Origin: Deltaproteobacteria bacterium
GTDB taxonomy: Bacteria > Desulfobacterota > Desulfuromonadia > Geobacterales > DSM-12255
NCBI GenBank assembly: GCA_021849045.1
Contig: JAJZTK010000020.1
Span: 1 to 40,838, forward strand
DNA: 40,838 bases
Reading direction: 5' to 3'
The notes under the pieces: generated by a model
Seen by the model: the letters and a program-made list of their open reading frames with translations, nothing else
Database searches by the model: none
Told to the model about the DNA's origin: nothing
Position numbers and translations under genes: made by a program
Shown: positions 3,758 through 16,707 of the stretch, one piece after another
Numbering within the stretch: position 1 is the stretch's first letter
Layout: each line of letters begins with the position of its first letter

Positions 3758-3793
3758 TTTCAAACATAAAAAGGGATAACAAGGAGGTCTTAC

Positions 3794-5057: not shown

Positions 5058-5118
5058 CTCCCCCTGCACATCCCTGCCCGATATTCCATCCCACTGATGT
5101 ATGAACCTGCAATATTTA

Positions 5119-5138
5119 TGTTATAAGGATCGTGATCC
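5119..5138 (+). promoter_or_regulatory. Possible promoter with palindrome, for the PrpR-like regulator
   Basis: An extended -10 element, TG-T-TATAAG (5119-5127), overlaps by one base a 12-bp near-palindrome GGATCGTGATCC (5127-5138). There is no clear -35 hexamer. A transcript starting near 5134 would lead into the regulator start at 5239. The palindrome could be an operator, but this rests on pattern alone. Confidence 0.35.
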
Positions 5139-5238
5139 GGGAAGACTCGATGATTGCTGCGGAGACGCCGTACCTCGTCCTGTTCGGATCTTTCGCATCC
5201 GATCTGTCGCGCATCGTCTGTTGTGGAGGAGAAAGGCC

Positions 5239-6840
5239 GTGTCTGAAGTTATATTCCTGTCGCCGTACGCGAAGATGACGCAGATTGCCCACAAGACCCT
5301 CAAGGAGAGGGAGGTGGGGTTCGAGGTCATCGAAGTGCCGCCCCTGCAGTCCGAAGAGATCGTCAAAGGAATCGACAGAAAGGCGCAAGTCATCATTTCG
5401 CGGGGCGGGATGGCCATGCTGGCAAAGCATTACACAAACGTGCCGGTGATAGAAATACCGGTGACGTTATCGGATATCCTCGATGCCGTTGGCAGGATAG
5501 AGGGGGGCAAAGGCAGGAAAAAGGTGATCATCAGTACTGCCAATATTATCTGCGACCCCAAATATATCAGCGAGATACAGGGATTGAGCATCGATTTCAT
5601 TACCAGCGATGACTCTTTTGTCTCCTGCCAGAACTGGATCGACGAGAGGATTCGGTCCGAGGAACTGGCGCAGGGTGGCGGTTATGATCTGATCATCGGC
5701 GACGCCCTGGTCTGTGCCATTGCGACCAAGCACGGGATTGACAGCGTATTGCTGGAATCGAATGAGGAGTCGGTGGCCTTCGCCGTCGACGAGGCGATGC
5801 GGATCGTCGAAACTAACAGGCTTGGCAGCCAGCAGCTGATAAGGCGCCGCAAGGAGATCCTGGAGAATGGCTGGGTGGCCAATTACAGCTTTCGCGACAT
5901 CCTGGGACAGGGGAGCGATCTCGAGCGGGCGGTAACGATGGCCAGGCTTTTTGCCAAGTCGGACGGCAACGTCCTCATCGAAGGCGAAACCGGTACCGGC
6001 AAGGAGATGTTCGCCCAGAGCATCCATAACGAGAGCGAGCGGGTGTACGGACCGTTCGTTTCGGTGAACTGCGGCGCCATAAGCGACAGCCTGTTCGAGA
6101 GCGAACTGTTCGGTTACGACAGCGGGGCCTTCACCGGCGCCAGCAAGGGGGGGAAGAAAGGACTGTTCGAATGTGCGCAGAACGGCACCATCTTCCTGGA
6201 TGAGATCAGCGAGACCCCGATCAACATGCAGGCGAAGCTGTTGAGGGTTCTGCAGGAGCGGAAGGTGAGAAGGGTTGGCAGCGAAAAGATCATCGATCTC
6301 AACGCCAGGATTATCTGCGCGACCAACAAGAATCTCATGGAACTGGCCGATTGCGGTCAGTTCCGCAGGGACCTGTATTACCGGCTGAGCGAGTTGGAGC
6401 TGTATCTGCCGCCGCTGCGCGAGAGGCGGGATGACGTGCTGTCCATTGCGGAAAACTTCCTCCACCGGGAGGCGGGAAAAATCAACCGGAAGCTGTACTG
6501 GAAAGACAGGACAGCTTTTGCGCCACTCCTGGACTACGACTGGCCCGGCAATATACGGGAGCTGCGAAACTTCATCGTTAAGCTCGCCACCTACTCCGGG
6601 GATGGCGAGATTACCAGCACTGCCGTGAGTGACCTGTTCCGGTCCAGTTACCGGGAGGTGGCGCGCAAGAAAGAGAGCGAGTTGACCATCGGCATCTCCA
6701 GGGATCTGAAGGTGATGGAAAAGGAGATATTCACCAAGCTGCTTCAACTCTATGACGGCGACAAGGAGCGGTTGTGCCGGGAGTACGGCATCAGCAAACC
6801 TACCTTATGGCGCAAGCTGAGCTATAAAAAGAAACCTTGA
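5239..6840 (+). CDS. Sigma-54-dependent transcriptional activator with PrpR-type N-terminal sensor
   Basis: A 533-residue enhancer-binding protein in three parts. Residues 1-200 match the PrpR_N ligand-sensing domain (for example ISRGGMAMLA and VPVIEIPVT). Residues about 215-450 form the AAA+ domain with Walker A GETGTGKE, the sigma-54 contact loop GAFTGA, Walker B IFLDEI, and YDWPGNIREL. A Fis-type helix-turn-helix ends the protein (YGISKPTLWRKL). There is no phosphorylation domain, so activation is probably by binding a metabolite, as in PrpR. The GTG at 5239 is chosen because GGAGGA lies eight bases upstream and the product starts directly in the sensor domain; longer versions would add unrelated residues. 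It lies between the beta-oxidation operon and the large catabolic run, and probably controls the latter through the downstream palindromes and -24/-12 promoter. Confidence 0.92.
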   Translation: MSEVIFLSPYAKMTQIAHKTLKEREVGFEVIEVPPLQSEEIVKGIDRKAQVIISRGGMAMLAKHYTNVPVIEIPVTLSDILDAVGRIEGGKGRKKVIISTANIICDPKYISEIQGLSIDFITSDDSFVSCQNWIDERIRSEELAQGGGYDLIIGDALVCAIATKHGIDSVLLESNEESVAFAVDEAMRIVETNRLGSQQLIRRRKEILENGWVANYSFRDILGQGSDLERAVTMARLFAKSDGNVLIEGETGTGKEMFAQSIHNESERVYGPFVSVNCGAISDSLFESELFGYDSGAFTGASKGGKKGLFECAQNGTIFLDEISETPINMQAKLLRVLQERKVRRVGSEKIIDLNARIICATNKNLMELADCGQFRRDLYYRLSELELYLPPLRERRDDVLSIAENFLHREAGKINRKLYWKDRTAFAPLLDYDWPGNIRELRNFIVKLATYSGDGEITSTAVSDLFRSSYREVARKKESELTIGISRDLKVMEKEIFTKLLQLYDGDKERLCREYGISKPTLWRKLSYKKKP

Positions 6841-6854
6841 TCGTCGATGAAATA

Positions 6855-6878
6855 GGCTGTTTCAAAACTGAAATAGCC
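6855..6878. promoter_or_regulatory. Palindromic site or hairpin just after the regulator gene
   Basis: GGCTGTTTCA and TGAAATAGCC form a 10-bp stem with one G-T pair around AAAC, 14 bases after the regulator stop. Without a T-tract it is a poor terminator. Its core TTTCAAAACTGAAA (6860-6873) differs at only two of 14 positions from the core of the two palindromes at 7018-7057, so it may be a third, weaker copy of the same protein-binding site. Confidence 0.45.
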
Positions 6879-7017
6879 GTCGTGTTCACCTCGACCGCTC
6901 GCAACCCGCTTCCAGTAAGGCGGTAGCAAATTCCCCCGACCGGACCCGCCTGAAATCACCCTCGTTCAGATTGTGTAACGTAGCTGCCAACGCGCCATGA
7001 CGCCGTTTCCGTTGACA

Positions 7018-7057
7018 GTATTTCAAATTTGAAGTGCGTATTTCAAATTTGAAATAC
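7018..7057. promoter_or_regulatory. Two abutting 20-bp palindromes, candidate enhancer sites for the sigma-54 activator
   Basis: The right copy (7038-7057) is a perfect 20-bp palindrome, GTATTTCAAATTTGAAATAC. The left copy (7018-7037) shares its first 16 bases and then differs at three of the last four. The two abut with a 20-bp period, close to two helical turns, so a regulator could bind both on one DNA face. They lie about 240-275 bases upstream of the -24/-12 element, a usual distance for upstream activating sequences. Binding by the adjacent PrpR-like protein is inferred. Confidence 0.6.
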
Positions 7058-7293
7058 AAGCGTGCTTGGTACGACTGTCTCTTGGCCTGATTGGCTCAAG
7101 ATTTCCCCCGAGTTCTTTTCTGCAAAAAATTAAACCAGAAAAAGCAGTTTCCCTACGTATCCCGGATTGAAAGGTCTAAATGGCCCAATTTGGTGTAACG
7201 ATGTTATTTTGAGTTCAAATGGATGGCGATAGTCGGACTTCGCTTACTTCCATGGTGTTGTTCTGGTTTGACTCTGTCGTGTGATTTAACGTG

Positions 7294-7312
7294 CTCGGCA
7301 CGATAGCTGCTT
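7294..7312 (+). promoter_or_regulatory. Sigma-54 (-24/-12) promoter of the catabolic run
   Basis: The sequence CTCGGCACGATAGCTGCTT has GG at 7297-7298 and GC at 7309-7310 with exactly 10 bases between, as sigma-54 requires. Against TGGCACG-N4-TTGC it differs only at the T before GG and the first T of TTGC. The transcription start would be near 7322, giving a leader of about 126 bases before the gene at 7448. Confidence 0.6.
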
Positions 7313-7447
7313 AATGAGGTGGAAAGCAAACCAATGTTTGGTAAAATGTGGGCACTCTTGTGAGCACTGCTTTATTGCCGAGGGCGGCCACTATACGGTC
7401 AACGTCAAGCTGTCCCGGCATCTCCATCATGAAAGGGGAAAGAGATC

Positions 7448-8443
7448 ATGAAAATCTGCATCTACGGAGTCGGCTCGGTCGGCGGATTCATCGGGGCGCG
7501 GCTCGCGCATGCCGGGTTCGAGCTGAACGCCGTGGCCCAGGGGGCAACGCTGAAGGCGCTACGTGAGCATGGGTTGAGGCTGCAAAGTGACGGCGTCTTT
7601 CTCACGGAAAAGGTGCATGCCACCGACGACCCTGCGGAACTCGGCGTGCAGGATATCGTCATCATCGCGGTGAAAGCACCCGCCTTGAAGTATGTGGCAC
7701 AGCGGATCGCCCCGCTGATCGGACCGGACACCGTAGTCATGACGGCCATGAATGGCATCTCCTGGTGGTTTTTCGAAGGGTTCGGTGGCGAGCATGCGGG
7801 GACGCGCCTCGCCTCGGTCGATCCTGACGGCTCGATTGGGGCAGCGATTCCGGCCCGCAATGTGGTCGGGTGCGTGGTACACGGCAGCTTTTCCCTGAAC
7901 GAGCCCGGCTTCGTGCGCCACGGCTTCGGCAAGCGGTTGATCATCGGGGAGCCCGACGGCAGCGATTCCCCACGCCTGCGCAAGCTGGCGGAGATCCTCG
8001 GCGCTGCGGAAATGGTTGTCGAAGTTTCCAAGAGCATCCAGGCCGATATCTGGTTCAAGCTCTGGGGGAACATGACCATGAACCCCGTTTCCGCGATGAC
8101 GGGCGCCACCTGTGACCGGATACTGGACGATCCGCTGGTAAACCGGTTCTGCCTGGACGTCATGGCCGAGGCGGCGCGAATCGGCGCGAAGATCGGCTGC
8201 CCCATCACCCAGAGCGGCGAGTCGAGAAACGCGGTAACGCGTGAATTGGGCGCGTTCAAGACCTCGATGCTGCAGGACGTGGAGGCCGGTCGGGCCGTGG
8301 AACTCGACGCCCTGGTCAGCGTCGTGCGCGAGATCGGCCAGAAGGTCGGCGAAACCACGCCGAACATCGATGCCCTGCTCGGCCTCAGCCGACTCCATGC
8401 GCGGGTGCACGGCCTGTATCCCCGGGAGCCGGCCGGCTCCTGA
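7448..8443 (+). CDS. Ketopantoate reductase (PanE/ApbA) family 2-oxoacid reductase
   Basis: A 331-residue NAD(P)H-dependent oxidoreductase. The Rossmann motif GVGSVGGFIG (7-16) opens the protein. Lys204, Asn208 and Asn212 in WFKLWGNMTMNPVSAMTG match the catalytic Lys/Asn region of PanE. A fold-typical all-helical C-terminal domain follows. True ketopantoate reductase makes pantoate, but family members also serve as (R)-2-hydroxyacid dehydrogenases. Its place first behind the sigma-54 promoter, ahead of HgdC/HgdB-type, CoA-transferase and 2-oxoacid oxidoreductase genes, suggests reduction of a catabolic 2-oxoacid to a 2-hydroxyacid and not vitamin synthesis. That specificity is inference. The ATG follows GAAAGGGGAAAG. 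At 8443 the gene ends just before a G/C-rich intergenic repeat. Confidence 0.85.
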   Translation: MKICIYGVGSVGGFIGARLAHAGFELNAVAQGATLKALREHGLRLQSDGVFLTEKVHATDDPAELGVQDIVIIAVKAPALKYVAQRIAPLIGPDTVVMTAMNGISWWFFEGFGGEHAGTRLASVDPDGSIGAAIPARNVVGCVVHGSFSLNEPGFVRHGFGKRLIIGEPDGSDSPRLRKLAEILGAAEMVVEVSKSIQADIWFKLWGNMTMNPVSAMTGATCDRILDDPLVNRFCLDVMAEAARIGAKIGCPITQSGESRNAVTRELGAFKTSMLQDVEAGRAVELDALVSVVREIGQKVGETTPNIDALLGLSRLHARVHGLYPREPAGS

Positions 8444-8458
8444 CTCACCCGGTTGTAA

Positions 8459-8529
8459 GAACCCTCTAACCTCCCCTTACCCTCGGATAGAAGGTATCCC
8501 CCTCGTACGTTAAGAGGGGGCAGGGGGAG
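8459..8529. repeat. Imperfect G/C-rich intergenic inverted repeat
   Basis: CCCTCTAACCTCCCCTTA (8463-8480) is answered by TAAGAGGGGGCAGGGGGAG (8511-8529), an imperfect inverted repeat with a central spacer. It resembles the C-run/G-run palindromes scattered between genes in Geobacter-like genomes. It may act as an mRNA stabiliser or attenuator between the reductase and the activator ATPase. Confidence 0.5.
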
Positions 8530-8590
8530 CTGTGTGCCAACCAAGAGGAAATTGGGCGTAGTGATCAGCAAAGCGAAGGGATACGGAACA

Positions 8591-9373
8591 ATGTCCAAGC
8601 AGCTGTTTGTCGGCCTCGACATAGGGGCATCAAGAACCAAGGTTGCCGTCCTGGATCGGGTGGGAGCGCTGATCGGTCATGCGGTCAGGAAGTCCGGGGT
8701 GGACTTCACCGCGACCGCCTCCGCCTGTCTGGACGACTCGCTGGCAATGGCCGGCGCCACCCGTGCCGACATTGTCAGGGCCGTCTCCACCGGCTACGGC
8801 CGGGCCAATGTATCTTTTGTCACCGAAGAGAGCAGGACCGAAATCGGCTGCCTGGCCAAGGGGGGCTACCACTTCTTTCCGGAAGCGATCTCCATCATCG
8901 ACATCGGCGGCCAGGACAACAAGATCGTCAAGCTGGACAGCGGAGGCCGGCGGAGCAGCTTCAAGATGAACCGCAAGTGCGCGGCCGGTACCGGTGCCTT
9001 TCTGGAGGAGATGGCCGGTCGGTTGGACCTTCCCCTGGAACAGATGAACGACCTGGCCCGTCAGTCCGGGGATATGGTCAAGCTGGGGAGCTACTGCACG
9101 GTCTTCTCTGCCACGGAGGTACTGGAGAGCATCCGCCACGGCAGAAAGATCAGCGACATCGTCAAGGGGATCTTCCATTCGGTCGTCAAGCGGGTGCTGG
9201 AGATGGACTCCCTCACCGAACGGGTCGTCATGACCGGCGGGGTGGCGGCCAACAACCCCTACATCGTCGAGATGGCGGCAGAGATGATAGGCCGGCCGGT
9301 GGTGACGCCGGAGTTCCCCCAACTGGCCGGCGCCATCGGCGCGGCGCTCTACGCCATGGATGGAAAAGGGTAG
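8591..9373 (+). CDS. BadF/BadG/BcrA/HgdC-type activator ATPase (2-hydroxyacyl-CoA dehydratase activase family)
   Basis: A 260-residue ASKHA-fold ATPase of the family that uses ATP to push low-potential electrons into a partner enzyme. The phosphate-binding motif GLDIGASRTK (8-17), STGYGR (66-71), DIGGQDNK (104-111) and TGGVAANN (215-222) are all present. Cys130 in NRKCAAGTGAF and Cys169 in SYCTVFSATE match the two cysteines with which each HgdC monomer helps hold the [4Fe-4S] cluster bridging the dimer. Length fits single-domain HgdC (about 260), not a larger benzoyl-CoA reductase subunit. The ATG at 8591 (AAGGGA upstream) is preferred; an in-frame GTG at 8534 would add 19 residues not expected in the family. 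Its partner is presumably the next gene. Confidence 0.9.
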   Translation: MSKQLFVGLDIGASRTKVAVLDRVGALIGHAVRKSGVDFTATASACLDDSLAMAGATRADIVRAVSTGYGRANVSFVTEESRTEIGCLAKGGYHFFPEAISIIDIGGQDNKIVKLDSGGRRSSFKMNRKCAAGTGAFLEEMAGRLDLPLEQMNDLARQSGDMVKLGSYCTVFSATEVLESIRHGRKISDIVKGIFHSVVKRVLEMDSLTERVVMTGGVAANNPYIVEMAAEMIGRPVVTPEFPQLAGAIGAALYAMDGKG

Positions 9374-9379
9374 TGCCAA

Positions 9380-9463
9380 GTAGGTTGGGTTAGCGATAGC
9401 GTAACCCAACAAGCAACGCTGCTATGTTGGGTTACGGCGATACAACCGTCTAACCCAACCTAC
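9380..9463. repeat. 84-bp nested-palindrome repeat (GTAGGTTGGGTTA family)
   Basis: The ends are a perfect 13-bp inverted repeat, GTAGGTTGGGTTA (9380-9392) and TAACCCAACCTAC (9451-9463). Inside lies a second perfect 11-bp pair, GTAACCCAACA (9401-9411) and TGTTGGGTTAC (9425-9435). This closely resembles a short repeat scattered through many bacterial genomes, probably a REP/MITE-like non-autonomous mobile element. Here it has landed between the ATPase and its presumed partner without breaking either frame. Confidence 0.7.
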
Positions 9464-9500
9464 CGACTCCATGCCTCACGGGTTCAGGAAGGAGACAGTA

Positions 9501-10748
9501 ATGGCTGAAGAGGGCACGACAGTGAGAAAAAAGATCCAGGCCACCGACCGGATGAACAGGATCATGGCCGATTACTTCTACGGTCTGAACGAGGCGGCAA
9601 CCAGCGGCAAAAAGAAGATTGCCTGGTGCACCAGTGTCGGCCCGGCCGAGCTGCTAAGGGCCATGGGGTTCGACGTGTACTTCCCGGAAAACCATGCGGC
9701 CTTGCTGGGCGCCACGCGCCTCTCCACCGACATGATACCGGAGGCGAACGCCATCGGCTATTCTCCGGACATCTGTTCCTACCTGACATCCGACATCGGC
9801 GCCTACCTGAAAGGGGTCACCCCGCTGGCCAAGGCGTACCAGGGGATCAACTCCATCCCAAGGCCAGACGTGCTGGTCTTCAACACCAACCAGTGCCGCG
9901 ACGTGCAGGACTGGCTCGCCTGGTACGCCAGGGAGCTGAAAGTCCCCTGCATCGGCATCACCTCGCCCAAGAGCATCAACGACGTCACCAACCCACTCAT
10001 CGACGATGTGGCACGGCAGATGGAGGCCCTGATTCCCACACTGGCGGCGATCTCCGGAGCCAGGCTCGACATGGACCGCCTCCAGGAAACCGTCGCCCTC
10101 TCCCGGGAGTGTACCGAACTCTGGAGGCAGGTCCTGGAGACGGCCACCGCGTCCCCCGCACCACTCACCTTTTTCGACGGTACCATTCACATGGGGCCGG
10201 CCGTGGTGCTGCGGGGGACCCAAGAGGCGATCGACTATTACAAACTGCTCCTGGCCGAACTGGAGCAGCGGGTCACGGAGGGGGTAGCCGCCGTCGAGGG
10301 GGAGTCGTTACGGATCTACTGGGAAGGGATGCCGGTCTGGGGCCGCCTGCGGCAGCATTCTGAGCTGTTTGCCGGTCTCAGGACCAATGTGCTCGCCTCG
10401 ACCTACTGCAGCAGCTGGATCTTCCCCTCCTTCGACGCAAAGGAGCCCATCCGCAGCATGGCCAAGGCCTACCTGGAGCTCTTCATCGTCCGCTCCGACG
10501 CGTACAAGGAGACGTACCTCCGGGAGATGCTGCAGAAGTTCCGCATCGACGGGATCATCTACCACGACGCCAAGACCTGCCCCTGCAATTCCAACAGCCG
10601 CTACGGCCTGCCCAAGCGGTTGGAGGCGGCAACCGGCATCCCCAGTCTGGTCATCTCCGGCGACCTTAACGACCTGCGCTGCGTATCCGACGAACAGACC
10701 AGGACCAACGTGGAAGCATTCATCGAACAGCTTGAGGAGGGGAAATAA
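9501..10748 (+). CDS. HgdB-like 2-hydroxyacyl-CoA dehydratase/benzoyl-CoA reductase family subunit
   Basis: A 415-residue Fe-S protein of the HgdB/BcrC/FldC superfamily. Cysteines at 43, 92 and 132 (WCTSVGPAELLRAMG, SPDICSYLTSDIG, NTNQCRDVQ) are in the pattern that binds the [4Fe-4S] cluster in this fold. Further cysteines are at 150, 203, 303, 360, 362 and 394, including KTCPCNSNSRYG. With ATP-energised electrons from the upstream activase it would dehydrate a 2-hydroxyacyl-CoA or reduce another substrate. Classical dehydratases need two different subunits of this fold; only one is encoded here. It may work as a homodimer, like YjiM-type or double-cubane-cluster reductases, or its partner lies elsewhere. 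The ATG at 9501 follows AAGGAG and the stop falls one base before the next start. Confidence 0.82.
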   Translation: MAEEGTTVRKKIQATDRMNRIMADYFYGLNEAATSGKKKIAWCTSVGPAELLRAMGFDVYFPENHAALLGATRLSTDMIPEANAIGYSPDICSYLTSDIGAYLKGVTPLAKAYQGINSIPRPDVLVFNTNQCRDVQDWLAWYARELKVPCIGITSPKSINDVTNPLIDDVARQMEALIPTLAAISGARLDMDRLQETVALSRECTELWRQVLETATASPAPLTFFDGTIHMGPAVVLRGTQEAIDYYKLLLAELEQRVTEGVAAVEGESLRIYWEGMPVWGRLRQHSELFAGLRTNVLASTYCSSWIFPSFDAKEPIRSMAKAYLELFIVRSDAYKETYLREMLQKFRIDGIIYHDAKTCPCNSNSRYGLPKRLEAATGIPSLVISGDLNDLRCVSDEQTRTNVEAFIEQLEEGK

Positions 10749-10749
10749 G

Positions 10750-12837
10750 ATGCTGGACGCACTGTTCAGACCCCGGTCGGTTGCCATTGTCGGGGCCTCC
10801 ACCAAGGAGCTCTCCATCGGCAACGTCATTACCAAAAACCTGCAGACGTATGGCTACAAAGGGGCCATCTACCCGATCAACCCGAATGCGCCGGACATCC
10901 GCGGCATCAAGGCGTACAGGACCCTGGCGGAGGTGCCCGGGGAGATCGACCTGGCCCACATCATCCTCCCCGGCAGCCAGGTGCCCCAGAGCATGGAGGA
11001 GTGCGGCCGGAAGGGGGTCAAGGCGGTGATCATCAACTCCGCCGGCTTCAGCGAGATGGGGGAGGAGGGGGCGACGCTCCAGGAGGAGTTCCTCGCCACG
11101 GCCAGGAACTACGGCATCCGGGTATTCGGCCCCAACTGCCAGGGGATCATCAACTCCGATCCGGAACTGAAGGCCTACTGCAACTTCACCTTCACCTATC
11201 CGGAGCCGGGCTACATCTCGGTGGTGGCGCTCTCCGGCGGTGTCGGCGGGCTGATCATGCAGGCCCTTGACGATCTGGGGATCGGTCAAAGGCTCTACGC
11301 CTCCAACGGCAATGCCTGCGACGTCTCCATCTCCGAGATCGTCCGTTACTACGGAGACGATCCGGGGACCAGGGCCATTATCCTCTACACCGAAGGGTTC
11401 GCCAACCCGCGGGAGTTCCTGGAGGTGGCCAGGGAGGTGGCGGCGAAGAAGCCGATCCTGGCCATGAAGGCCGGCCGGACCGAAGAGGGGGCCAAGGCGG
11501 CCTCCTCCCACACCGGTTCGCTCGCCGGGGTGGATATCGCCACCGAACTGATCTTCGAAAAGACCGGCATCCTCTCCTTCAGTGACGAGGGGGAGATGGC
11601 GCAGGCTGCCATGGCCTTCGCTTCCCAGCCGGTCCCCAGGGGGAACCGGGTCGGGATCATCACCAACACCGGCGGACCGGCGGTCATCGCCACCGATGTC
11701 CTGGTTGCGTGCGGTCTGGAAGTGCCCAGGCTTGCGGACGCCTCCATCGCCAGGCTGGCCGAGACCCAGCTGCCGGAAGCGGCTCTGGAGAACCCCGTCG
11801 ACGTGATCGCCACAGCCGGCGGCCCCCAGTTCCGCGGTGCCCTGGATGTGCTTATGGAGGATGAGCGGATCGACAGCATCTACATCACCTTCGTCACCGC
11901 CCCGTTCACCGATACCGACGCCATTGCCCGTGAGATCGTGGCGGCAAACCGGCTGGGGAAGAAGTCGCTCGTGTGCAACTTCATCACCAGTGTCAGGATG
12001 GAGCGGTTCCAGAAGACCATGGGGATACTGAAGGATGGACAGGTCCCGTTCTACGCCAACCCGAGCGACGCAGCCAAGGCGCTGGGCGCTCTTACCAAGT
12101 ACGGTCGGATCAGGCAGCGGGACATCGGCCAGGCCGAGACCTTCAGCGGGGTGGACAGCGCCCGGGCCAGGGCGATCATCGACCAGGCAAAGCAGGACGG
12201 CTGCAGCGTTCTCAGTGCCAGCGACGTCTACTCTATCTTCGAGGCGTACGGTATCCCGGTGGCCGGCTGGCGGGTGGTGGATACCGCAGCCGAAGCGGTC
12301 GCCGCTGCGGAGCAGATTGGCTACCCGGTGGTGATCAAGGTGGACTGCGAGGAGATCGACCACAAGAGCGACATGGGCGGGGTAGCGATTAACCTGAGGG
12401 ATAGCGCCGCGGTCCGCGCCACGGTGGAGGATATGCAGGGACGCCTCGGTGATTACGGAAAGCTTCGCTTCTTTGTCCAGCAGTTCCTTCCCGGCGGGCG
12501 CGAGCTGATCATCGGCGCCACTGCCGAGCGTGAGCTGGGACACCTGGTGATGTTCGGCTTGGGCGGCATCTACGTCGAGGTCCTCAAGGATGTGGCCTTC
12601 AAGATCGCACCGGTCACCGCGGTGGAGGCCGGGGAGATGCTGGCGAGCCTGAAGACCGCGGCCCTCTTGGACGGCGTCCGGGGCGAGAAGGGGGTCGACA
12701 AGGAAAGGATCATCAACCTGATCCAGCGGGTCTCCCAGCTACTCATTGACCTGCCGATGATCCAGGAGATGGACATGAACCCGATCATGGCGTTTAGCGA
12801 CGGCGTCTACGCCGTGGACGGCAGGATCAGAATCTAA
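10750..12837 (+). CDS. ADP-forming acyl-CoA synthetase (fused alpha-beta, Acd type)
   Basis: A 695-residue single-chain NDP-forming acyl-CoA synthetase that interconverts acyl-CoA + ADP + Pi with free acid + ATP + CoA. The N-terminal CoA-binding Rossmann domain begins with RPRSVAIVGAS (7-17). A succinyl-CoA-synthetase-like domain carries the phosphorylated His254 in SSHTGSLAG. The C-terminal third is an ATP-grasp domain (about 480-695, with YPVVIKVDCEEIDHKSDMGG-like sequence). ATG follows GAGGAGGGG within the end of the preceding gene, only one base after its stop, so the two are translationally coupled. Neighbouring IorAB would supply acyl-CoA from a 2-oxoacid, which makes this the likely substrate-level ATP step. 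The specific acid is not determinable. Confidence 0.9.
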   Translation: MLDALFRPRSVAIVGASTKELSIGNVITKNLQTYGYKGAIYPINPNAPDIRGIKAYRTLAEVPGEIDLAHIILPGSQVPQSMEECGRKGVKAVIINSAGFSEMGEEGATLQEEFLATARNYGIRVFGPNCQGIINSDPELKAYCNFTFTYPEPGYISVVALSGGVGGLIMQALDDLGIGQRLYASNGNACDVSISEIVRYYGDDPGTRAIILYTEGFANPREFLEVAREVAAKKPILAMKAGRTEEGAKAASSHTGSLAGVDIATELIFEKTGILSFSDEGEMAQAAMAFASQPVPRGNRVGIITNTGGPAVIATDVLVACGLEVPRLADASIARLAETQLPEAALENPVDVIATAGGPQFRGALDVLMEDERIDSIYITFVTAPFTDTDAIAREIVAANRLGKKSLVCNFITSVRMERFQKTMGILKDGQVPFYANPSDAAKALGALTKYGRIRQRDIGQAETFSGVDSARARAIIDQAKQDGCSVLSASDVYSIFEAYGIPVAGWRVVDTAAEAVAAAEQIGYPVVIKVDCEEIDHKSDMGGVAINLRDSAAVRATVEDMQGRLGDYGKLRFFVQQFLPGGRELIIGATAERELGHLVMFGLGGIYVEVLKDVAFKIAPVTAVEAGEMLASLKTAALLDGVRGEKGVDKERIINLIQRVSQLLIDLPMIQEMDMNPIMAFSDGVYAVDGRIRI

Positions 12838-12855
12838 CCTAAGGAGAACCGATTC

Positions 12856-14193
12856 ATGGCTGCTCTGAACGCGCAGGATGTTTCAAGCTGGCGGGAGATC
12901 TACGCATCACGACTCACAACCTCTGATGAGGCGCTCAAGGCGGTCGAATCGGGAAACCGCATCTATCTGACCGGAAATGCGTCGGCACCCCTGGAGCTCC
13001 TGGCCGCACTGGTCAGGCGCGCTCCGCAGCTGAAGGACGTGGAGGTCTTCCAGCCCCTGACCATCTGTCCGGGTGACTATGTGGTCCCCGGGATGGAGAA
13101 GCACCTCCGGCCCAATGCCTTCTTCATCAGCCACACCATACGCGGGGCCGTGAACGAGGGGCGCGCCGATTTCACCCCGGTGTTCCTTTCCGAACAGCCG
13201 CTCCTGTTCAGAGACGGCCACCTGTCGCTGGATGTGGCGCTCACCCATGTCTCCCCGCCGGATGAGCAGGGGTACTGCTCGCTGGGTGCGGAGGCCGGGC
13301 TTGCCATAACATCCGTGGAAAGCGCCAGGACGATCATCGCCCAGGTGAACCGGCAGATGCCGCGGACGATGGGGGATACCCTTATGCACGTGTCGCGCAT
13401 GCAGTATGTGGTGGAGGCCGACCACCAGCTTGCGCAGCGGGCCATGGGGGATGAGGCCGACGAGGTGACGACGGAACGGATCGCGGCCCATATTGCCGAA
13501 CTGATTCCCGATGGCGCCACCATGCAGCTCGGGATCGGCTCGATCCCCGATGCCGTACTCAAGCATCTCCACGCCAAGAAAGACCTGGGTATCCACTCGG
13601 AGCTGATCTCCGACGGCGTAATCGAACTGGTGGAAAAGGGGGTGATCAACAACAGCCGCAAGACCCTGCACCCCGGAAAGATCGTCTGCGGCTTTCTCCT
13701 CGGTACCGATCGTCTGTACCAATGGACGAACAACAATCCGCTCCTGGAGATGCATCGTTCCGAATACGTGAACGACCCGTTCGTTGTCGCGCAGAACGAC
13801 CGGATGGTGGCGGTGAACTCGGCCATCGAGGTGGACCTCACCGGCCAGGTCTGCGCCGACAGCATCGGTCCCAGGCTCTATTCGGCCGTGGGAGGGCAAC
13901 TGGACTTCATCTACGGCGCCTCCCGCTCCAAAGGGGGGATGCCGATCATCACCATGCCGAGCAGTTCGACGCTAAGGAACGGGACCAAAGTGAGCAAGAT
14001 CATCCCGATGCTCAAGCATGGCGCCGGGGTGGTCACAAGCCGCAACCATGTCCGCTACGTGGTGACCGAGTATGGCGTTGCGTCACTGTACGGCAAGAGC
14101 ATCCGGCAGCGAACCCAGTCGCTCATCAATATCGCCCATCCCGAGTTCCGCGAGCAGATCACACGGCAGGCGAGGGAGCTGAACTACCTGTAA
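12856..14193 (+). CDS. Acetyl-CoA hydrolase/transferase family CoA-transferase (4-hydroxybutyrate/butyrate CoA-transferase-like)
   Basis: A 445-residue class I CoA-transferase. These proteins move CoA from a donor such as acetyl-CoA to a carboxylic acid through a glutamyl-CoA intermediate. Family signatures are LGIGSIPDAVL (225-235), GIHSELISDG (245-254, where Glu249 is my best guess for the catalytic residue by recalled alignment), GGQLDFIYGA (346-355), and VTEYGVASLYG (403-413). Length fits the Cat/AbfT group. ATG follows AAGGAGAAC, and the gene is 18 bases behind the synthetase in the same operon. In context it could activate a 2-hydroxyacid for the HgdB-like enzyme, or recycle CoA between acids. 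Confidence 0.87.
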   Translation: MAALNAQDVSSWREIYASRLTTSDEALKAVESGNRIYLTGNASAPLELLAALVRRAPQLKDVEVFQPLTICPGDYVVPGMEKHLRPNAFFISHTIRGAVNEGRADFTPVFLSEQPLLFRDGHLSLDVALTHVSPPDEQGYCSLGAEAGLAITSVESARTIIAQVNRQMPRTMGDTLMHVSRMQYVVEADHQLAQRAMGDEADEVTTERIAAHIAELIPDGATMQLGIGSIPDAVLKHLHAKKDLGIHSELISDGVIELVEKGVINNSRKTLHPGKIVCGFLLGTDRLYQWTNNNPLLEMHRSEYVNDPFVVAQNDRMVAVNSAIEVDLTGQVCADSIGPRLYSAVGGQLDFIYGASRSKGGMPIITMPSSSTLRNGTKVSKIIPMLKHGAGVVTSRNHVRYVVTEYGVASLYGKSIRQRTQSLINIAHPEFREQITRQARELNYL

Positions 14194-14212
14194 CCCGAGT
14201 TTTTGAGAAGGT

Positions 14213-14325
14213 CTCTTCCCCCTCCCTTGACGGGAGGGGGGCAGGGGGTGGGAGAAGGTGCAACGCGCCAACTTCGTGGCCACTTCCCCCCCACCCTCGC
14301 CCTCCCCCGCCAGGGGGGAGGGAAC
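14213..14325. repeat. Large G/C-rich inverted-repeat element (REP-like)
   Basis: Two related palindromic arms face each other. One is at about 14213-14258 (CCCTCCCTTGACGGGAGGG core), the other at about 14283-14325 (CCTCCCCCGCCAGGGGGGAGG core). A unique 24-base centre separates them. This is the common C-run/G-run intergenic element of Geobacter-like and many other proteobacterial genomes. It falls between the CoA-transferase and iorA, where it may lower read-through or stabilise RNA ends. Confidence 0.65.
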
Positions 14326-14376
14326 TTTTTGAGCCTTCTGCAAGTGGCTCTACCTTAAAAAGAAGGGATATCATTC

Positions 14377-16119
14377 ATGAAGAAGATAATTTCCGGTAAC
14401 GAAGCCATTGCTCTGAGCTTCGGGGATAGCGGCGGCGTCTTCGCCTCCGGCTACCCCGGCACCCCCAGCACCGAGACCCTGGAAGAGGTGGCCCGCCTGG
14501 GCGAGGTTTACTGCGAATGGGCACCCAACGAGAAGGTGGCCCTGGAATCGGTCATCGGCGCCTCCATCGCCGGCGGCAGGTCCCTGTCCACCATGAAGCA
14601 TGTCGGGGTGAACGTGGCCGCCGACGCGCTCATGACCCTGACCTACACCGGCGTCAACGGCGGTCTGATCCTGATGGTGGCCGACGATCCCGGTCAGCAC
14701 TCCTCCCAGAACGAGCAGGACAGCCGCAACTACGCGAAATTCGCCAAGGTGCCGATGCTGGACCCGGCCGATTCCCAGGAGGCCTATGACTTTGTCCGGG
14801 TCGGGTTCGAGATCTCCGAGCAGTTCGACACCCCGCTCATGCTCCGCACCACCACCCGGATCTCCCACGCCAAGGGGGTTGTGGTGCAGGGCGAGAAGCG
14901 CGCGCCGAAGGTCGGCGAGTGGGTGAAAGACGTCCCCAAATACGTGATGCTCCCCAATTACGGCCGGATCAAGCACCAACTGGTGGAAGAGCGCCTCCTT
15001 AAGCTGCAGTCGTTTGCCGAGACGACCCCGCTCAACCGGGTTGAAATGGCGGATACCGACCTGGGGATTCTCACCTCCGGCATCTCCTACCAGCATGTGA
15101 AAGAGGCCTATCCGAACGCCTCGGTGCTCAAGCTCGGCCTGGTCCATCCGCTGCCGGAGCGAAAGATCCGGGAGTTCGCGGCCAGTGTGAAGAGGTTCAT
15201 GATCGTCGAGGAGATGGATGGCATCTTCGAGGAGCAGATTCGGGCCATGGGGATACGGGTCGACATCGGCAAGGACCGGATTTCCTATTGTGGCGAGGTG
15301 AGCGAGGATATCGTCCGGGCAGCGGCCGGCGATGCCGTGACTGTGTGCGGCGCCCCCGTCGATGGGCTTCCCCAGCGTCCTCCCACCTTCTGCCCCGGTT
15401 GTGGCCACCGCGGGCTCTTCACGATCCTGAGCAAGCTCAAGGTTTTCGTTTCCGGCGATATCGGCTGCTATACCCTGGGTGGACTCCCTCCCATCAGTGC
15501 CATGCACAGCAGCATCTGCATGGGGGCGAGCATCAGCGCGGCCCATGGGATGGCCAAGGTCAACCGGATTGCGGGGAGGACGGAGAAGCCGGTGGCGGTC
15601 ATCGGCGATTCCACCTTCTTCCATTCGGGGATGACCGGGCTCCTGAGCCTGGCCTACAACGGCGGCAACGCGCTGGTCATCATCATGGACAACCGCGCCA
15701 CGGCCATGACCGGCGGCCAGGAAAATCCGGGCTCCGGCCTGGTGCTGGAAGGGGAGCCAGCAAAACAGGTTGACATAACGGCGATCGTGAAGTCGCTGGG
15801 GATCGACCATGTTGCCGCGATCAACTCCTACAACCTTGAAGAGACAGAGGCCGCCATCCTAAAGGGGTTGGAGACCCCCGGTCCGTATGTACTCATCGAC
15901 AGCAACCCCTGCATACTCCGGTATCGGGTGAAGAAGCCCTTGCTGAGCGTGGATACGGAAAAATGTACCGGGTGTCGCGCCTGTCTCAAGGTCACCTGCG
16001 TGGCGCTGGGGTTGGTGCCGGCCGGCGACAGGATGAAGGTGCAGATCGACCCCAACATCTGCAACGGGTGCGGTGTCTGTAGCCAGGTCTGTAAATTCGA
16101 CGCCATGTCCGTGGCGTAA
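14377..16119 (+). CDS. iorA: Indolepyruvate:ferredoxin oxidoreductase, alpha subunit
   Basis: A 580-residue thiamine-diphosphate and Fe-S enzyme subunit. It oxidatively decarboxylates aryl or related 2-oxoacids to acyl-CoA while reducing ferredoxin. The N-terminal half is the pyrimidine-binding domain (GYPGTPSTETLEE, EWAPNEKVALE). The TPP-binding half has PTFCPGCGHRGLF, GDIGCYTLGG, and GDSTFFHSGMTGL with DNRATAMTGGQ. The tail carries two [4Fe-4S] motifs, CTGCRACLKVTC and CNGCGVCSQVC. Length matches archaeal and bacterial IorA. ATG follows AAGAAGGGAT. The beta subunit starts 15 bases after the stop. The ferredoxin it reduces could feed the activator ATPase encoded upstream. Confidence 0.94.
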   Translation: MKKIISGNEAIALSFGDSGGVFASGYPGTPSTETLEEVARLGEVYCEWAPNEKVALESVIGASIAGGRSLSTMKHVGVNVAADALMTLTYTGVNGGLILMVADDPGQHSSQNEQDSRNYAKFAKVPMLDPADSQEAYDFVRVGFEISEQFDTPLMLRTTTRISHAKGVVVQGEKRAPKVGEWVKDVPKYVMLPNYGRIKHQLVEERLLKLQSFAETTPLNRVEMADTDLGILTSGISYQHVKEAYPNASVLKLGLVHPLPERKIREFAASVKRFMIVEEMDGIFEEQIRAMGIRVDIGKDRISYCGEVSEDIVRAAAGDAVTVCGAPVDGLPQRPPTFCPGCGHRGLFTILSKLKVFVSGDIGCYTLGGLPPISAMHSSICMGASISAAHGMAKVNRIAGRTEKPVAVIGDSTFFHSGMTGLLSLAYNGGNALVIIMDNRATAMTGGQENPGSGLVLEGEPAKQVDITAIVKSLGIDHVAAINSYNLEETEAAILKGLETPGPYVLIDSNPCILRYRVKKPLLSVDTEKCTGCRACLKVTCVALGLVPAGDRMKVQIDPNICNGCGVCSQVCKFDAMSVA

Positions 16120-16134
16120 GAACAGGAGATAATC

Positions 16135-16707
16135 ATGAATGTATTCAATATCGTTATTGCCGGGGTAGGCGGGCAGGGGGTGTTGCTGGCCTCCAGGGTG
16201 CTGGCTGAAAGCGCCCTTGCCTGTGGCATGGATGTCAAGCAGAATGAGGTCCATGGCATGGCCCAGCGAGGCGGGAGCGTCATCTCCTTCGTCCGGATCG
16301 GGGAGCGGGTCTACTCTCCGGTGGTCATGCCCGGCAGTGCTGATATCCTGATCTCTTTCGAGCCGTTGGAGGCACTCAGGTACAGTCACTATCTGAAGCC
16401 GGGCGGGAAGCTCGTGTTCAACAAGGTCACCATCAACCCCAGTACGGTCGCCTCCGGCATGGCCACCTATCCGGCCGATGTGGAGGAGCAGATCGCCCGG
16501 GCCTGCGCGGATGCCCATGGTATCGATGCGCTCGCCATCGCCAAGGAGGCGGGCAACGCCAAGGCCGTGAACATGGTCATGGTCGGTTCGGTCATGAAGC
16601 ATCTCCCCATCGATGCGCAGGTTGTGGAGGGGGTCGTCAGGGAGGTTTCCAGGGATAGGGGGGCTGACGTAAATTTGAAAGCCCTCAAGGGGGGCGCCGC
16701 AGCCTGA
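16135..16707 (+). CDS. iorB: Indolepyruvate:ferredoxin oxidoreductase, beta subunit
   Basis: A 190-residue gamma-type subunit of the 2-oxoacid:ferredoxin oxidoreductase superfamily, which binds CoA and pairs with IorA. The N-terminal phrase IVIAGVGGQGVLLASRVLAE and NEVHGMAQRGGSVISFVRIG are standard for IorB. ATG follows an ACAGGAG-like site directly downstream of iorA, so the two make one enzyme. Aryl-pyruvates are the usual substrates in archaea, and branched 2-oxoacids are possible. Ends 94 bases before the binding-protein start. Confidence 0.93.
   Translation: MNVFNIVIAGVGGQGVLLASRVLAESALACGMDVKQNEVHGMAQRGGSVISFVRIGERVYSPVVMPGSADILISFEPLEALRYSHYLKPGGKLVFNKVTINPSTVASGMATYPADVEEQIARACADAHGIDALAIAKEAGNAKAVNMVMVGSVMKHLPIDAQVVEGVVREVSRDRGADVNLKALKGGAAA

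Follow-up and report, generated by a model that had tools for sequence, protein, structure and literature searches.

What switches on the catabolic genes that begin at position 7448 of this Geobacter sequence, and is the switch encoded in the DNA beside them? A preliminary description of the window (the whole stretch analysed, 40,838 nucleotides) proposed that a PrpR-like activator, a small family of palindromes and a -24/-12 promoter make up an inducible control unit for the genes from 7448. This proposal is supported by conservation of the sites, by recurrence of the tandem motif beside related activators and by the presence of rpoN in the window's genome, with corrections or qualifications that concern the start of the activator, the role of the weaker palindrome copy and the kinship to PrpR. 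From these sequence comparisons, we consider it highly probable that this locus has a dedicated sigma-54 switch of its own, of the one-component type, which acts through tandem enhancer sites and the promoter at 7296-7311 to drive the run from 7448 (Table 1).

Table 1. Features of the proposed control unit and its target genes, in window coordinates
Feature	Position	Strand	Sequence or basis
Sigma-54 activator, one-component (most likely start)	5239..6840	+	Pfam, motifs, 98% identity to G. argillaceus copy
Site 3, weaker; candidate enhancer and/or transcript 3' hairpin	6860-6873, in hairpin 6855..6878	.	TTTCAAAACTGAAA; 12/14
UAS site 1, candidate	7018..7037	.	GTATTTCAAATTTGAAGTGC; 18/20 copy abutting site 2; 14-bp core identical in G. 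argillaceus
UAS site 2, candidate	7038..7057	.	GTATTTCAAATTTGAAATAC; perfect 20-bp palindrome
-24/-12 element, putative sigma-54	7296..7311	+	CGGCACGATAGCTGCT; one spacer change in G. argillaceus
Operon 5' leader, conserved	7313..7447	+	8/134 positions changed vs 92/414 upstream of promoter
First target gene, ketopantoate-reductase-family (2-hydroxyacid-type) dehydrogenase	7448..8443	+	Pfam ApbA/ApbA_C
Rest of probable target run	8534..16707	+	Acyl-CoA dehydratase activase, HgdD-type dehydratase component, ADP-forming acyl-CoA ligase, acyl-CoA:acetate CoA-transferase, IorA, IorB

Results

In the activator, a PrpR_N domain is followed directly by an AAA+ domain (Pfam). The PrpR_N match (PF06506) reaches 2.9e-27 and 95.8 bits against a cut-off of 29.1, that to Sigma54_activat reaches 6e-65, and the Walker A motif (GETGTGKE) and GAFTGA loop expected of the AAA+ domain of sigma-54 activators are both intact. 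The C-terminus (GISKPTLWRKL) is a putative Fis-type HTH: Pfam HTH_8 gave no match there at 1e-3, but the segment aligns with the end of Escherichia coli PrpR and resembles other activators in following the GISRTTLWRRL pattern. Within the frame 5101-6840, translation most likely starts at GTG 5239, which replaces the ATG 5101 given earlier; GGAGGAG precedes it, and the tblastn alignment to G. argillaceus begins there. The resulting protein has 533 aa, compared with 528 aa in E. coli PrpR and approximately 630-690 aa in most other PrpR_N activators found.

The name PrpR-like holds for domain content but not for identity with PrpR itself. The activator scores 357.9 bits against the PrpR equivalog TIGR02329 (NCBIfam), below the cut-off of 499.2, no methylcitrate-cycle (prp) genes adjoin it, and prpD has no match in the window's genome; PrpR proper is therefore ruled out. 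The protein is also narrowly distributed. Among 13 genomes of the family, it was found at a strict E-value only in the window's own and in one of the same genus (98% identical, matching G. argillaceus), and no closer orthologues were found elsewhere among 395 genomes of the phylum at E<=1e-110.

The CoA-transferase of the target run is of the butyryl-CoA:acetate type, and IorA and IorB are indolepyruvate oxidoreductase subunits. Judging from the translations, we take the genes after them to encode a branched-chain-amino-acid-type ABC transporter. The genes from 7448 to 16707 are presumably co-transcribed. The HgdD-type component stands alone with its activase (window 8534-10748), with no second homologous subunit seen adjoining, unlike HadBC.

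Direct reading bears out the palindromes as they were described, including the abutting near-copy at a 20-bp period and the weaker relative after the activator gene. Sites 1 and 2 form a single 40-bp block of two palindromes, 20 bp from centre to centre, with the half-site TTTCA and a 4-bp spacer. When the 607-bp intergenic sequence is simulated with a first-order Markov model, about 0.1% of the versions contain a perfect palindrome with arms of 10 bp, the tandem copy not counted. The window holds four matches to TTTCAAATTTGAAA at <=3 mismatches (0.78 expected; 0/100 shuffles reach four), and the fourth, at 3758 with three mismatches, is probably due to chance. The earlier statement that no further copy of the palindrome lies in the window was right.

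Across the 4.33-Mb genome, the 14-bp core occurs exactly once, and its single one-mismatch copy is the adjoining site 1. Two-mismatch cores number six, that at 6860 included; the reversed control pattern gives three. The TTTCA-N4-TGAAA places elsewhere in the genome (L006, L091-L094) and the two-mismatch places lack good sigma-54 partners, and most lie within long open frames. Thus, the regulon appears to be confined to this locus.

The proposed promoter lies ~240 bp downstream of the palindromes and has the GG-N10-GC spacing first noted (GG at 7297-7298, GC at 7309-7310), within CGGCACG-ATAG-CTGCT, two mismatches from TGGCACG-N4-TTGCW. It shares 12/17 bases, counted by eye, with the Geobacter sulfurreducens RpoN consensus TTGGCACGGTTTTTGCT (PMC2725144). 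As sigma-54 matches of such quality are no commoner in the 40-kb window than chance predicts (9 against 6.85 expected), the call is based on position, orientation, conservation and neighbours and not on the match alone. No other such element in the 607-bp intergenic region has GG as well as GC, and this one is oriented toward the operon. An IHF-like site between enhancer and promoter was not found at <=1 mismatch. A sigma-70 promoter was considered and rejected: the region offers one weak match on the + strand (7320-7347, 9/12) and one on the minus strand, and G. argillaceus does not keep the TTGACA at 7012.

In the leader between promoter and first gene, the two Geobacter species agree at 94% of positions, compared with 78% for DNA upstream of the promoter. 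A riboswitch and a leader peptide were both rejected for this stretch, as no Rfam family reached its gathering score and the small frames are not conserved.

Conservation was tested directly between two close genomes, that of the window and that of G. argillaceus (locus L011; L176 is the same locus in genome G007). The preliminary description had staked its reading on palindromes conserved beside orthologous activators, and not one of the 30 half-site bases of the three sites is substituted in G. argillaceus, compared with 92/414 (22%) of the remaining positions in the alignment up to the promoter (Fisher p = 7e-4). At site 2 the outermost pair has changed from G..C to A..T, on both sides, with pairing kept. 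By sequence and conservation, the sites look like enhancers upstream of a -24/-12 promoter. A 209-bp repeat element separates sites from promoter in G. argillaceus, lengthening the distance from ~240 to ~440 bp with both ends conserved.

The preliminary description also suggested looking for the core beside orthologous activators in related genomes. We scanned about 45 PrpR_N activators, from the phylum and from named genomes, for pairs of TTTCAAAWTTGAAA 18-23 bp apart and <=700 bp from the activator gene, with 73 other activators, taken regardless of sensor domain, as the comparison set. Tandem TTTCAAAWTTGAAA at 19-22 bp, together with a sigma-54 element, was found at a few diverged loci: L023 and L157 match in 26/28 letters each, and L164 in 22/28. 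Anaerovirgula, of the Bacillota, and genome G052 carry such pairs, and G129 has a looser one. In the comparison set of 73 other activators no locus had a tandem score >=22, and permuting the motif 60 times as a control never gave as many loci. Counting strict TTTCA-N4-TGAAA matches in the flanks without the tandem requirement gave only a weak enrichment; the tandem scan was informative.

All three have a sigma-54 element directed at the adjoining operon (TGGCACGATTATTGC in L023, TGGCACGCTTCCTGC in L157 and TGGCACAAAATATGC in L164). The order in L023, from Anaerovirgula multivorans, is that of the window: activator, tandem sites, TGGCACGATTATTGC and an operon starting with a D-2-hydroxyacid dehydrogenase gene. 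L157 and L164 have the tandem sites between the activator gene and a gene run that diverges from it and has its own sigma-54 element. The neighbouring genes encode a transporter of the sodium:sulfate-symporter family in L157 and, in L164, an FAD-dependent oxidoreductase, PrpF and TctA. The tandem motif is missing beside about 42/45 of the PrpR_N activators scanned, and we therefore regard it as a feature of a PrpR_N subgroup; such scarcity is expected if DNA specificity diverges quickly.

Eight loci without the motif (L012, L040, L137, L141, L148, L154, L158 and L171) also have a perfect TGGCAC-N5-TTGC just downstream of a PrpR_N-type activator gene. An activator followed by a sigma-54 operon is thus a common layout.

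Discussion

We propose that the activator would sense a small metabolite through its PrpR_N domain, presumably an inducer from 2-oxo/2-hydroxyacid catabolism and most likely an intermediate of the pathway that the run encodes. Activator dimers would bind the tandem palindromes, which, with centres 20 bp apart, should lie on about the same face of the helix. The dimers could then assemble as an AAA+ hexamer and loop over about 240 bp, with ATP driving the change of the RNA polymerase-sigma-54 complex at 7296-7311 from its closed to its open form. Opening of this promoter would turn on the 2-hydroxyacyl-CoA/2-oxoacid catabolic run.

Alternatively, the palindromes could be the operator of another, unlinked factor, such as a repressor of acyl-CoA metabolism, with the sigma-54 element a chance match or served by another activator. 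The frequency of sigma-54 matches of this quality in the window is in keeping with this explanation, but the genome has the motif at this locus alone, and the tandem motif with adjacent sigma-54 elements recurs beside PrpR_N activators of three other lineages and not beside the 73 others, and we judge it very unlikely. Less likely still is a role of the inverted repeats purely as RNA, in which 6855-6878 would end the activator transcript and 7018-7057 would form a long hairpin that blocks read-through or stabilizes the end. Both stretches can fold (-19.2 for 7016-7060; -13.8 kcal/mol for site 3, and -19.5 in G. argillaceus, where changes in one arm are matched in the other). Against this, neither repeat has a T-run on the + strand, the terminator scan calls neither, each tandem copy is itself palindromic, which a single hairpin does not need, and in two related loci the tandem lies upstream of the activator gene.

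The third site is where a dedicated sigma-54 switch and an RNA structure could coexist. Its 10-bp hairpin begins 15 nt past the activator stop codon. The arms are GC-rich and covary when the two species are compared, with changes on both sides preserving pairing. It is a real possibility, if somewhat short of an even one, that sites 1 and 2 are the only enhancers and that site 3 is a transcript hairpin sharing the core by chance, a variant compatible with the switch that we prefer. The position directly after the stop codon and the covarying arms favour this variant, but in G. argillaceus the core of site 3 equals that of site 2 in 14/14 bases, a match that a hairpin alone would not need. Site 3 could mark the end of the transcript, serve as an enhancer or do both.

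The kind of control unit proposed here is known. PrpR of Salmonella and E. coli (prpR-prpBCDE) likewise combines PrpR_N and AAA+ with a C-terminal HTH, putative in the present protein, beside a sigma-54 operon. However, E. coli PrpR is only 35% identical to this activator, and the prp operon is divergent from prpR whereas the target operon here follows its regulator in the same orientation. TTTCA/TGAAA (TGAAAC) half-sites occur in the E. coli prpR-prpB region too, but in a different arrangement and without this palindrome. Sigma-54 activators with their own enhancers beside catabolic operons have been described genome-wide in Clostridiales (PMC6615313). Among these, LeuR-hadAIBC likewise pairs an activator with an operon for 2-hydroxyacyl-CoA dehydratase that has a UAS and a -24/-12 promoter of its own; the comparison covers layout and gene content, and the Geobacter set differs in having a single HgdD-type component, an ADP-forming ligase and IorAB. 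One-component EBP regulons of Desulfovibrio vulgaris, as presented in the main text of PMC4641369, are similarly small and dedicated (one to four operons, activator-specific motifs), and that text mentions neither PrpR nor the TTTCA motif.

What appears to be new is an enhancer sequence specific to this locus and common to a few distant relatives. In our estimation there is a slightly better than even chance that a PrpR_N subgroup spanning the window's phylum and Bacillota has its own undescribed enhancer code, two TTTCAAAWTTGAAA 19-22 bp apart by a sigma-54 promoter, that predicts target operons, here the 2-hydroxyacyl-CoA run with a ligand other than 2-methylcitrate. In the literature searched, the sole match to the exact motif strings was an unrelated plant-virus paper. 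The general understanding of sigma-54 control is unchanged by this locus. For an amino-acid/2-hydroxyacid fermentation-type cluster in Geobacter, these results point to a likely regulator with likely enhancer sites and promoter, and the tandem motif offers a means of finding targets for some PrpR_N activators related to this one.

Enhancers usually lie 70-150 bp upstream, and their position can vary widely (PMC3844500). As enhancer action by looping allows variable distance, the longer spacing between sites and promoter in G. argillaceus fits the proposed switch, and the repeat lying there provides a natural test of enhancer distance. This ~209-bp repeat has inverted ends (TACTTTGTCA/TGACAAAGTA) and looks like a non-autonomous mobile element, with 82 matches in the G. 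argillaceus genome G007 and 25 in that of the window.
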